Positions 42,384 through 45,018 of a stretch of 64,000 nt of DNA are shown in pieces. The stretch's first letter is position 1; each line of letters starts with the position of its first letter. Under the pieces are notes generated by a model, which searched no databases, was not told where the DNA came from, and was given only the letters and a program-made list of their open reading frames with translations. Source of the stretch: Candidatus Nanopelagicus limnes (lineage in GTDB: Bacteria; Actinomycetota; Actinomycetes; Nanopelagicales; Nanopelagicaceae); contig NZ_CP016768.2 in assembly GCF_002287885.2 (NCBI RefSeq), forward strand, positions 434,001 through 498,000, in the 5' to 3' direction. The translations under genes and the position numbers were made by a program.

Positions 42384-43220
42384 ATGAGTTTATTTAAACG
42401 TTTATTTAATGCAGTTAGATCTGGCTCAGTTTCGAATGAGCAGTGGGATGATATTCGAAGTAATTTAATCTCAGCAGACCTTGGCGTAAAGCTAGTTGAT
42501 CAGGTTATTGCAGAGGCGAAGTCGGCAAAGCCTGAAAATGCACAGCAATCAATTACATATGTGATTAAGCAATGGCTAAGTAGTAAAGATAGGGCAATCG
42601 CTAAGAATTCAGATCGGGTAAGCACCATATTGGTCGTAGGGGTTAACGGAACTGGGAAAACGACCTCAACTGCAAAGTTAGCAAATTTGATTAAGAATGA
42701 GAAAAATACTGTTTTGTTAGCAGCAGCTGACACGTTTCGCGCAGCTGCCGTTGATCAGTTGCAAACTTGGGCAAGTCGAATTGATATTGAGGTTGTAAGC
42801 GGAGCAGCAAATGGTGATCCGGCTGCTGTTGCTTTTTCAGCAATCACTAAAGCCAAATCTGAAAACTACAACTATCTTCTTGTGGATACTGCCGGAAGAT
42901 TGCACACCAAAGAGAATTTGATGCAGGAATTAGGAAAAGTTATCAGAGTTATCGAAAAGCAGTCACCTGTTGATGAAATTTTATTGGTACTTGACGCTAC
43001 TACTGGTCAAAATGGAATTAATCAGGCAAAGGTTTTCATTGAAGCCGCCGGTGTGACGGGATTTATTCTCACTAAATTAGACGGTTCGGCAAAGGGTGGG
43101 GTAGGCCTTGCGATCGAGAAAGAGTTTGGATTGCCGATTAAATTTATAGGCACGGGGGAGCAGATTTCAGACTTAGCCCCCTTTGATCCAGAGCAGTACA
43201 TCGCATCTTTGTTTGATTAG
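42384..43220 (+). CDS. ftsY: Signal recognition particle receptor FtsY
   Basis: GTPase that docks SRP-ribosome complexes at the membrane. 278 residues comprise just the NG domain: N domain about 1-75, P-loop GVNGTGKTT at 86-94, DTAGR near 166-170, TKLDGSAKGG near 233-242. The acidic N-terminal A domain and any transmembrane segment are missing, so membrane contact must rely on the short N-terminal amphipathic stretch (SLFKRLFNAVR). Confidence 0.96.
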   Translation: MSLFKRLFNAVRSGSVSNEQWDDIRSNLISADLGVKLVDQVIAEAKSAKPENAQQSITYVIKQWLSSKDRAIAKNSDRVSTILVVGVNGTGKTTSTAKLANLIKNEKNTVLLAAADTFRAAAVDQLQTWASRIDIEVVSGAANGDPAAVAFSAITKAKSENYNYLLVDTAGRLHTKENLMQELGKVIRVIEKQSPVDEILLVLDATTGQNGINQAKVFIEAAGVTGFILTKLDGSAKGGVGLAIEKEFGLPIKFIGTGEQISDLAPFDPEQYIASLFD

Positions 43221-43251
43221 GTAACATACTTTTAACAATTGCTTTAAAACT

Positions 43252-43267
43252 GTCACCAGTTCGAAAC
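43252..43267 (+). promoter_or_regulatory. GlnR-type operator upstream of amtB-glnK
   Basis: GTCAC (43252-43256), six bases, GAAAC (43263-43267): an exact match to the actinobacterial GlnR half-site gTnAC-n6-GaAAC. A poorer copy, GTAAC-n6-TTAAC, lies at 43221-43236. The site is about 110 bases before amtB, upstream of TTGATT at 43280, a weak -35, as expected for an activator. GlnR itself is not in the window. Confidence 0.55.
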
Positions 43268-43341
43268 TTAAAAAACCACTTGATTTAACCCATTCAGGCC
43301 AGAGTATTGCCATCTCAAAGGCGAGGTTTCCCAACTATATG

Positions 43342-43362
43342 AATACTGCGAAAGCAGGTATT
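43342..43362 (+). promoter_or_regulatory. Leader hairpin with GAAA tetraloop before amtB
   Basis: AATACTGC-GAAA-GCAGGTATT can form an 8-bp stem with one bulged G and a GNRA tetraloop, ending seven bases before the amtB Shine-Dalgarno (GGAG at 43370). Function unknown; a stabilising or regulatory RNA element is possible. Confidence 0.4.
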
Positions 43363-43378
43363 GGTTATTGGAGATCAA

Positions 43379-44683
43379 ATGGCAGAAGTAGTTTTAAACA
43401 CTGGTGATACGGCTTGGGTTTTAGCAAGTACAGCATTGGTGCTTTTAATGACACCAGGATTGGCACTTTTCTACGGCGGCATGGTTCGTGCTAAAAGTGT
43501 TTTGAATATGATGTTAATGTCAATGGTAACAATTGGCATCGTTAGTGTGTTGTGGGTAATTTATGGATTCAAATTAGCCTTTGGCTATGAAGCAAACTCA
43601 CAGTGGTATGGAGAGATATCTCTATCTGGTTTGGGTAGTGCGGTAAACGAATTAACTAATAACGGTGGTGTTTATCCAATTCCATTACTAGCATTTGCTG
43701 CTTTCCAACTTATGTTTGCGATTATTACGCCAGCTTTAATATCAGGCGCTATTGCAGATAGAACTAAGTTCACAGCTTGGGCAGTTTTTGTAACAGTCTG
43801 GGTTACTTTGGTTTATTTCCCAGTTGCACACTGGGTCTTTGCCTTTGGAAATAAGGTTGGCGATAAGGTAACGGGGGCTGGATTCTTAGCAGCCAGAGGT
43901 GTGCAAGATTTTGCAGGTGGAACCGCTGTTCATATAAATGCTGGCGCAGCTGGTCTTGCAATGGCAATCATCCTTGGTAGGCGAGTGGGATGGCGACGAG
44001 AATCGATGCGACCACACTCACTGCCATTGGTGTTAATTGGTGCTGGTTTGCTTTGGTTTGGTTGGTTTGGATTTAATGCTGGATCTGCATTGGGAGCAAA
44101 TGGCACCGCAGCTTTAGCATTGTTAAACACTCAAGTAGCAACAGCGGCCGCAGCATTGGGGTGGCTAGTAGTAGAAAAACTAAGAGATGGTCATCCAACT
44201 TCACTCGGCGTTGCATCTGGTGCAGTCGCCGGCTTAGTTGCAATTACGCCAGCATGCGCATTTGTTGCCCCATGGGCAGCAGTTGTAATCGGTTTGATTG
44301 CTGGAATCTTATGCGCGCTTGCAGTTGGCCTTAAGTATCTATTCAACTTTGATGATTCACTAGATGTTGTTGGCGTTCACTTAGTTGGTGGATTATGGGG
44401 CTGCTTATCACTTGGCTTCTTTGGCAGTAGCGCAATCAATAGCCTTGGCTTAGATGGCATCTTCTATGGTGGTGGCGCCACTTTGCTTGGCAAGCAGGCA
44501 TTTGGAGCTTTCTTTGTTTTAACTTACTCCTTTATCGTCACCTTAATTATCGGCTTTGCTATCGATAAGACGATTGGACTTAGAGTTAAAGCGGAGGCTG
44601 AAATTTCTGGAATTGATTACGATCAACATGCAGAAACTGGATATGAATTAACTAATAGTTCAAGAGGAGGTTTTAGCTCATGA
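43379..44683 (+). CDS. amtB: Ammonium transporter Amt
   Basis: Eleven-helix membrane channel for ammonium. 434 residues from the ATG at 43379, which has GGAG five bases upstream; the TTG six codons earlier is rejected. The twin pore histidines are His185 (TAVHINAGAAG) and His334 (VGVHLVGGLWG), and FYGGMVRAKSVLN lies near 31-43. Coupled by ATGA to glnK, which blocks the channel when nitrogen is plentiful. Preceded by a GlnR-type site and a leader hairpin. ftsY-amtB-glnK-ffh is the actinobacterial order with glnD removed. Confidence 0.96.
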   Translation: MAEVVLNTGDTAWVLASTALVLLMTPGLALFYGGMVRAKSVLNMMLMSMVTIGIVSVLWVIYGFKLAFGYEANSQWYGEISLSGLGSAVNELTNNGGVYPIPLLAFAAFQLMFAIITPALISGAIADRTKFTAWAVFVTVWVTLVYFPVAHWVFAFGNKVGDKVTGAGFLAARGVQDFAGGTAVHINAGAAGLAMAIILGRRVGWRRESMRPHSLPLVLIGAGLLWFGWFGFNAGSALGANGTAALALLNTQVATAAAALGWLVVEKLRDGHPTSLGVASGAVAGLVAITPACAFVAPWAAVVIGLIAGILCALAVGLKYLFNFDDSLDVVGVHLVGGLWGCLSLGFFGSSAINSLGLDGIFYGGGATLLGKQAFGAFFVLTYSFIVTLIIGFAIDKTIGLRVKAEAEISGIDYDQHAETGYELTNSSRGGFSS

Positions 44684-45018
44684 AGTTAATTACCGCAATT
44701 ATTAAGCCACAAAAACTAGATGCAGTTAAAGAGGCGCTAGTTTCACAAGGCATAACTGGTATGACTGTTTCAGAAGCTAAAGGTTTCGGTCGCCAACTTG
44801 GCCTTACTGAGGTTTATCGTGGAACCCAATACAAGGTGGATCTCATACCGAAAATAAGATTGGAAGTATTGGTTAGTACTAAAACTGCAGATAAAGCAAT
44901 AGAAATTATTGTTAATGCTGCTAGGACCGGAAGCATTGGCGATGGCAAAGTATGGGCCACAGCAGTTGAATCAGTAACTCGGGTTCGAACCGGTGAGAGT
45001 GGTGAAGAAGCAATCTAA
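44680..45018 (+). CDS. glnK: Nitrogen regulatory protein PII
   Basis: 112-residue trimeric sensor of 2-oxoglutarate and ATP/ADP. Tyr51 (the residue modified by uridylylation or adenylylation) is present in the T loop (YRGTQYKVDLIPK, 46-58), as is the KIRLEVLV strand. Starts with ATGA overlap onto amtB. The modifying enzyme GlnD is usually encoded next and is not; ffh follows 20 bases later. Confidence 0.96.
   Translation: MKLITAIIKPQKLDAVKEALVSQGITGMTVSEAKGFGRQLGLTEVYRGTQYKVDLIPKIRLEVLVSTKTADKAIEIIVNAARTGSIGDGKVWATAVESVTRVRTGESGEEAI

Follow-up and report, generated by a model that had tools for sequence, protein, structure and literature searches.

The gap between ftsY and amtB in this genome very probably carries a GlnR-controlled promoter of the amtB-glnK operon, predicted from sequence comparison to have the three-box layout known from the amtB promoter of Streptomyces. 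Its status as an ordinary instance of a known promoter type is well supported. The adjacent hairpin in the amtB leader is also well supported, as a real RNA element of nitrogen genes. The host is an actinobacterium of the Nanopelagicales type, whose habitat is fresh water, and its genome of 1,238,108 bases forms a single contig from which the window, a stretch of 64,000 nucleotides (G000:C1:434001-498000), was taken. The genes of the locus, named by reading their translations, are arranged in the order ftsY, amtB, glnK and ffh (Table 1). The amtB product of 434 residues aligns end to end with those of near relatives, and shows 69-82% identity to AmtB proteins of Candidatus Nanopelagicaceae, Candidatus Nanopelagicales and unclassified Actinobacteria or Actinomycetota MAGs.

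Table 1. Genes and putative regulatory elements around the amtB promoter, in coordinates of the window
Feature	Position	Strand	Remarks
ftsY	42384..43220	+	upstream neighbour; identified from translation; stop codon 43218-43220
Predicted distal GlnR box GTAAC-atactt-TTAAC (GTAACATACTTTTAAC)	43221..43236	+	position of Streptomyces box a3-b3; kept at exactly -31 from proximal box
Predicted proximal GlnR box GTCAC-cagttc-GAAAC (GTCACCAGTTCGAAAC)	43252..43267	+	position of box a1-b1; exact consensus match
Degenerate site AACCA at +22	43274..43278	+	presumed counterpart, from 11-bp phasing, of the atypical Streptomyces amtB site a2
TTAAC at +33	43285..43289	+	position of b2; most family promoters have KTAAC or a similar sequence at +33/+34
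-10-like element CAGAGT	43300..43305	+	aligned with CATAGT/CATATT of relatives
Leader hairpin CUC-AAAGGC-GAG	43314..43325	+	A1/G4 hexaloop
amtB, ammonium transporter	43379..44683	+	ATG start at 43379; GGAG at 43370-43373
glnK, PII protein	44680..45018	+	overlaps the end of amtB; identified from translation

Layout of the amtB-glnK promoter

Two boxes are found in the ftsY-amtB gap with a start-to-start distance of 31 bp, the distal one beginning directly after the ftsY stop codon. The first-pass annotation had described a GTCAC-n6-GAAAC element fitting every fixed position of the consensus, together with a degenerate copy 31 bases upstream, and both observations hold, the match being exact and the copy reading GTAAC-ATACTT-TTAAC. 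Its term "half-site" has to be dropped, since GTCAC-n6-GAAAC is one whole GlnR box, which in the terms of the literature comprises an a site plus a b site and has the actinobacterial consensus gTnAc-n6-GaAAc (excerpts of PMC5826061 and PMC10704036).

According to excerpts of PMC5826061, the S. coelicolor amtB promoter contains boxes a3-b3, a1-b1 and a2-b2, of which a2 is atypical and dispensable while a3-b3 is required for activation, and boxes of this kind were footprinted with GlnR. The promoter described here resembles that of the S. coelicolor amtB-glnK-glnD operon in its GTCAC-n6-GAAAC proximal box, the distal box at -31, the poor a2 site, the b site at +33 and the presence of amtB-glnK downstream (same excerpts). 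It differs in the distal box, which is KTAAC-n6-KTAAC here and TTCAC-n6-GTAAC there (PMC5826061, in part), in the b2 site, which is KTAAC here, shifted by one base in some genera, and GAAAC there, in the gene following glnK, which is ffh here and glnD there, and in having a GC content of about 42%. The putative distal box and the candidate box upstream of glnA resemble the forms of the GlnR box in Mycobacterium smegmatis (t/gTAAC-n6-Gc/aAAC) and S. venezuelae (GTnAC-n6-GTnAC) given in excerpts of PMC10704036.

The base spacing for Streptomyces was measured on other Streptomyces loci rather than taken from PMC5826061. GTSAC-n6-KWAAY is present in 16 of 18 such amtB loci, and each of these 16 promoters is unique, has GAAAC at +33 and shows a poor match at +22. 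The distal box at -31 accompanies the proximal one in 16/16 by a loose rule (at least 4 of the 5 scored letters) and in 7/16 by a stricter rule. Among 32 loci from other named genera the proximal pattern appears in just nine unique promoters, with the distal box at -31 in three and at 21 in five. An alternative layout with two GlnR-like boxes 21 bp apart is seen in amtB promoters of Micromonospora and Paractinoplanes (L254, L272, L277).

Alignment with the promoters of relatives suggests that transcription probably starts near 43312. Relative to this start the proximal box would span roughly -60 to -45 and the distal box roughly -91 to -76, with the TTAAC site at roughly -27 to -23. The scan of 43100-43500 returned no sigma-70-like promoter above its threshold, a result compatible with the "weak -35" of the first-pass annotation without proving it. 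A placement of the boxes upstream of, and overlapping, a poor -35 would fit activation by GlnR. Under nitrogen limitation, GlnR dimers would then occupy the distal and proximal boxes, a weaker GlnR site may extend to about 43289, and the bound GlnR would recruit RNA polymerase to the promoter with its poor -35.

Distribution of the boxes and of glnR

The prediction of GlnR-type nitrogen control had been accompanied by a call for a glnR gene, for the motif in related amtB promoters and for the motif before glnA. It is supported, at the level of sequence, on all three sides, by an encoded glnR ortholog, a conserved box pair and a glnA box, the last in a variant form. For the amtB promoters, 143 of the 151 family genomes searched had a match, and one upstream region each was obtained from 130 genomes. 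A KTNAC-n6-KWAAC box is found in 116 of these 130. Counts of box spacing were made on de-duplicated promoters, which are still drawn from related genomes and hence not independent: in 56 of the 62 unique promoters with GTSAC-n6-KWAAY the loose rule finds a further box at a distance of exactly 31 bp on the upstream side, and, when spacings of 17-59 were tried under the stricter rule, 31 was by far the commonest (54/63), followed by 23 with four. The fixed letters of the boxes are kept between genera while the spacer letters vary. At +33 the 62 unique promoters show GTAAC (27), TTAAC (6), GTAAT (4) or GAAAC (1), and in a further 20 a comparable site is displaced by one base (+33/+34). The sequence of the +22 site is conserved neither in the family nor in Streptomyces.

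The genome encodes four OmpR-type regulators, with best PDB matches to GlnR, MtrA, RegX3 and PhoP respectively. The GlnR ortholog (G000:C1:109183-109887, minus strand) has 8hih as its best match (1e-83), followed by 8hig, 8hml, 4o1i and 4o1h; the last is named GlnR in PDB, and 8hih and 8hig, listed under generic names, are presumably also GlnR. Among chains that bear the name of a different regulator, regX3 (2oqr) matches best, at only 6e-26. The receiver domain of this protein is atypical in lacking the N-terminal acidic pair, its start reading LLLLTN in alignment with the similar starts of 8hih and 8hig, and its C-terminal domain is closely similar to theirs. An OmpR-type protein with an atypical receiver devoid of this acidic pair is the defining trait of GlnR. 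Downstream of glnR lies a gene for an acetyltransferase, which we take to be MshD-like. The remaining regulators are MtrA (L003; 2gwr, 1e-83), RegX3 (2oqr, 2e-103) and PhoP (L004; 9ji3 and 3r0j, 2e-87).

A glnR ortholog was found in 114 of the 151 family genomes; the other 37 were scored as negative by a best match with E above 1e-35, so that paralogs are left uncounted, and contig breaks can give false negatives among them. On the whole, the box is present in 99/104 promoters from glnR-positive genomes as against 17/26 from glnR-negative ones, figures which come from related genomes and do not represent independent events. Four of the five glnR-positive promoters without the regular-expression box belong to genus g8 and have GAAAC-n6-GTTAC. 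Within genus g6 the box occurs in 11/11 glnR-positive and 0/8 glnR-negative amtB promoters, a contrast in favour of the GlnR reading. In these glnR-negative genomes, three of which are 97-99% complete, amtB is still found at the ftsY-amtB locus. All 14 promoters from genera g11, g14, g15 and g16 in which glnR was not detected keep the boxes; the absence of the gene from these genera is uncertain because the assemblies are 81-94% complete and it may be unassembled, and a true absence would weaken the link between GlnR and the boxes. Within the genus of the host, the distal box at least survives in three of the four promoters from glnR-negative genomes; in G029 and G059, where glnR was not found, the proximal box is decayed and the distal one intact. 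An inexact proximal box is also seen in G017 and G077, which do have glnR. Seven g6 loci without glnR (L163, L170, L175-L179) encode an AmtB with an N-terminal extension. Instead of the GlnR boxes they have another conserved block upstream (GTTAAATT..CGCCGTTCGTAAGA in the majority of them), at which a substitute regulator might bind or a substitute promoter might lie.

The survival of the distal box in G029, G052 and G059, where no glnR was found, bears on the proposal that the boxes are mainly sites for MtrA (or PhoP), with GlnR a minor or absent occupant. Both of these regulators are encoded here, and excerpts of PMC9045223 describe an MtrA consensus highly similar to that of GlnR and binding of MtrA to amtB. 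Given the absence of the boxes from the glnR-lacking g6 genomes and the exact GlnR consensus in the proximal box, this proposal appears improbable. Sites of this kind are also used by MtrA and PhoP in Streptomyces (PMC9045223 and PMC5826061, in part), and here these two regulators may plausibly share the boxes with GlnR or compete for them.

The preferred reading, control by GlnR, would extend to glutamine synthetase. The glnA gene of the host has GAAACATAGATGTAAC at -116, a box of the form GAAAC-n6-GTAAC which lies outside the exact pattern given in the first-pass annotation, and a second glutamine-synthetase gene has TTAACATAGCCGTAAC upstream. Across the family the glnA box is found, in either orientation, in 25/27 usable loci of one set and 18/20 of another, with three loci (L060, L070, L083) dropped on account of an upstream stretch that is not at the gene start. 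These boxes, which precede a gene with a different upstream neighbour, along with the GlnR footprints on such boxes in S. coelicolor (PMC5826061, in part), render it highly improbable that the conserved block serves the core promoter or the ending of ftsY rather than a regulator, despite the distal box directly following the ftsY stop codon and the +33 TTAAC falling within the probable -35/-10 spacer.

The letters of the 16-mer taken alone are not significant because their counts do not exceed those of controls: exact GTNAC-n6-GNAAC has 2 matches in the window against 0.96 expected from shuffles, and 18 in the 1.24-Mb genome against 34 for the reversed pattern, making the genome-wide count uninformative as evidence. 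Of these 18 sites, 17 fall within mechanically listed ORFs of at least 70 codons on either strand, leaving only GTCACCAGTTCGAAAC upstream of amtB-glnK outside. A 47-bp composite, derived from the relatives and from this very site, has one fit with 0 mismatches in the window, against 0.04 expected at up to 3 mismatches. Hence, GTCACCAGTTCGAAAC is judged to be real on account of its conservation across the family and not of pattern counts. A functionless chance match in an AT-rich gap, with which the unexceptional pattern counts would agree, has next to no probability, being already contradicted by the comparative data, namely the retention of fixed letters and the 31-bp spacing across genera amid varying spacers.

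Leader hairpins of amtB, glnA and ald

The amtB leader hairpin of the host (CTCAAAGGCGAG) lies 47 bp downstream of the GlnR boxes. The corresponding pattern CTCA..G..GAG follows immediately after the -10-like element in all of the first 30 family promoters and in 119/130 of the whole set, the exceptions being all four of g8, both of g4, the single one of g13, two of g7 and two of g16. The hairpin persists in those g6 genomes where both glnR and the boxes are missing. Elsewhere the pattern is rare, with one occurrence in 18 Streptomyces amtB upstream regions and two in 20 from other families, one of these far upstream. A search of 14 genomes with CTCAAYGRYGAG gave 48 matches against 26 for a reversed control: nine just upstream of amtB, three of glnA and two of ald, with the other 34 inside mechanical ORFs. 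Two of the 14 upstream matches are also inside an ORF, which is spurious or extended.

In order to compare loops without fixing the stem, Watson-Crick hairpins with a six-base loop were sorted into 16 classes by the bases at loop positions 1 and 4. Leaders were de-duplicated for these counts, though relatives are not independent. Among amtB leaders A1/G4 is found in 123/129 at a stem of 3 or more, the next class having 19, and in 64 at a stem of 4 or more. For glnA the corresponding figures are 24/47 against 9, and 15 against 3. The ald leaders constitute a nearly held-out test, because just two of the pattern matches came from ald. Here, A1/G4 holds a slight lead at a stem of 3 or more (18/48, next class 14) and a clear one at 4 or more (13/48, next class 2; mean 1.05 and maximum 4 in shuffles of 49 leaders that keep base composition only, not dinucleotides). 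By the fixed pattern 7/50 ald leaders match, against 0.15 expected from shuffles that likewise keep base composition only, and a hairpin of this type is missing from the majority of ald leaders; a misplaced ald locus without a hairpin (L379) is included in the counts on 49 and 50 leaders and left out of that on 48. The 285 control leaders precede mechanically listed ORFs of at least 200 codons on either strand, not all of which are real genes; among them the A1/G4 class comes 15th of the 16 classes at stem 3, with 20 leaders, and sixth at stem 4, with 8.

The stems vary by gene and genus with pairing retained (CTC/GAG, GTC/GAC, TTC/GAA, TGAC/GTCA, TGC/GCA), and since these variants were selected for pairing, the loop-class comparison is the fair test. 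Covariation of the flanking pair in amtB is weak (66/91 paired, 56.2 expected), and the three core pairs are invariant in this set because the search pattern fixed them. The ald leader of the host (L398, G000:C1:813752-814152) has a perfect 8-bp stem, TACTAAAC-AGGGTG-GTTTAGTA, about 40 nt before the start, which ald of L400, from the same genus, retains with one changed pair. The glnA gene of the host has just a two-pair candidate, GC-AAAGTC-GC.

A reading of CTCAAYGGCGAG as a DNA operator is disfavoured, as its left half CTCAA is far better kept than the mirror half (T at offsets 7 and 8 in 0.11 and 0.24), in a count for which the selection pattern fixed CTCA and GAG, and as the stems of ald and glnA change in sequence without losing their pairing. 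Folding of the host leader in its entirety into a stable structure finds no support (z of -1.39, with 16/200 shuffles folding as well). Rfam gave a single match at 43100-43500, far below the gathering score. A further hexaloop candidate in the window, TTGGTT-ATTGGA-GATCAA at 43361-43378, has G-U pairs and covers the amtB Shine-Dalgarno; it is probably due to chance, downstream hairpins not being in excess among relatives. In another gap of the genome (L364, G000:C1:32373-32384), CTCAAAGGGGAG lies 17 nt before a 465-codon ORF and could be either chance or a further hairpin target.

The ANTAR protein as a possible reader of the hairpin

The signature reported for ANTAR targets is a six-base loop with A1 and G4 (excerpts of PMC3369931 and PMC8164766), and a single hexaloop has been argued to be the minimal motif (PMC8934654, in part). 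In other bacteria, ANTAR RNAs are located at genes for ammonium transporters, PII and glutamine synthetase (excerpts of PMC3369931), while the actinobacterial targets described in excerpts of PMC8164766 belong to carbohydrate, amino acid and lipid transport and metabolism and to transcription factors, nitrogen use being mentioned there just for other bacteria; in the part of its text that was searched, tables excluded, the words "ammonium" and "glutamine" are absent. The genome of the host encodes one ANTAR protein, which is similar to PdtaR/Rv1626 (1s8n, 5e-70). We take 1s8n to be Rv1626 itself. An ANTAR protein scores above the cut-off in 141/151 family genomes, including genera without the amtB hairpin; with the protein nearly universal, its presence does not discriminate as a test against presence of the hairpin.

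The elements described here resemble ANTAR-target RNAs in being small hexaloop hairpins with conserved A1 and G4, situated in leaders of nitrogen genes in a genome with one ANTAR protein (PMC3369931, PMC8164766 and PMC8934654, all in part). Unlike classical ANTAR targets, most amtB leaders here have one conserved hairpin rather than two, and, unlike the eut, nas and ami cases, there is no overlap with a terminator, none of the intrinsic type being found beside the hairpin at 43100-43500. Within the window, no tandem hexaloop hairpin lies at the distance of 2-25 nt from the amtB hairpin, and the amtB leaders of the family have no excess of a second one downstream of it. Upstream, a second hairpin is present in 23/113 leaders against 10.9 in composition-preserving shuffles (maximum 22), seven of the 23 proving on later inspection to be one repeated g6 hairpin; conservation of a second hexaloop hairpin across the family is thus unsupported by the scan. 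The repeated one, GCC-AGTGTC-GGC or GGT, is an A1/G4 hairpin 29 bases upstream of the amtB hairpin in seven of the eight glnR-lacking g6 genomes (L163, L170, L175-L179), and hints faintly, in these close relatives, at the two-hairpin form typical of ANTAR targets.

Given the above observations, we lean slightly towards the view that the A1/G4 leader hairpins of amtB, of many glnA genes and of part of the ald genes are read by the single PdtaR-type ANTAR protein, which we infer to be their reader, and that they provide control of nitrogen genes at the RNA level alongside GlnR, persisting where GlnR has been lost. Searches of the openly licensed literature on ANTAR or PdtaR with nitrogen gave, among the matches listed by title and abstract start, nothing describing such an element, and none were found on GlnR in Nanopelagicales or on the regulation of their ammonium transporter.

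At amtB, a streamlined genome of 1.2 Mb appears to keep the GlnR switch of soil actinomycetes down to the base spacing. The retention of the Streptomyces-type layout implies that data from Streptomyces are transferable to freshwater bacteria of the Nanopelagicales type, and in the glnR-negative g6 genomes nature provides a test of GlnR dependence, site by site. It is the adjacent hairpin that deserves to be pursued: its type, common to the leaders of amtB, glnA and some ald genes, represents a concrete, testable candidate for an RNA target of PdtaR-type ANTAR proteins.
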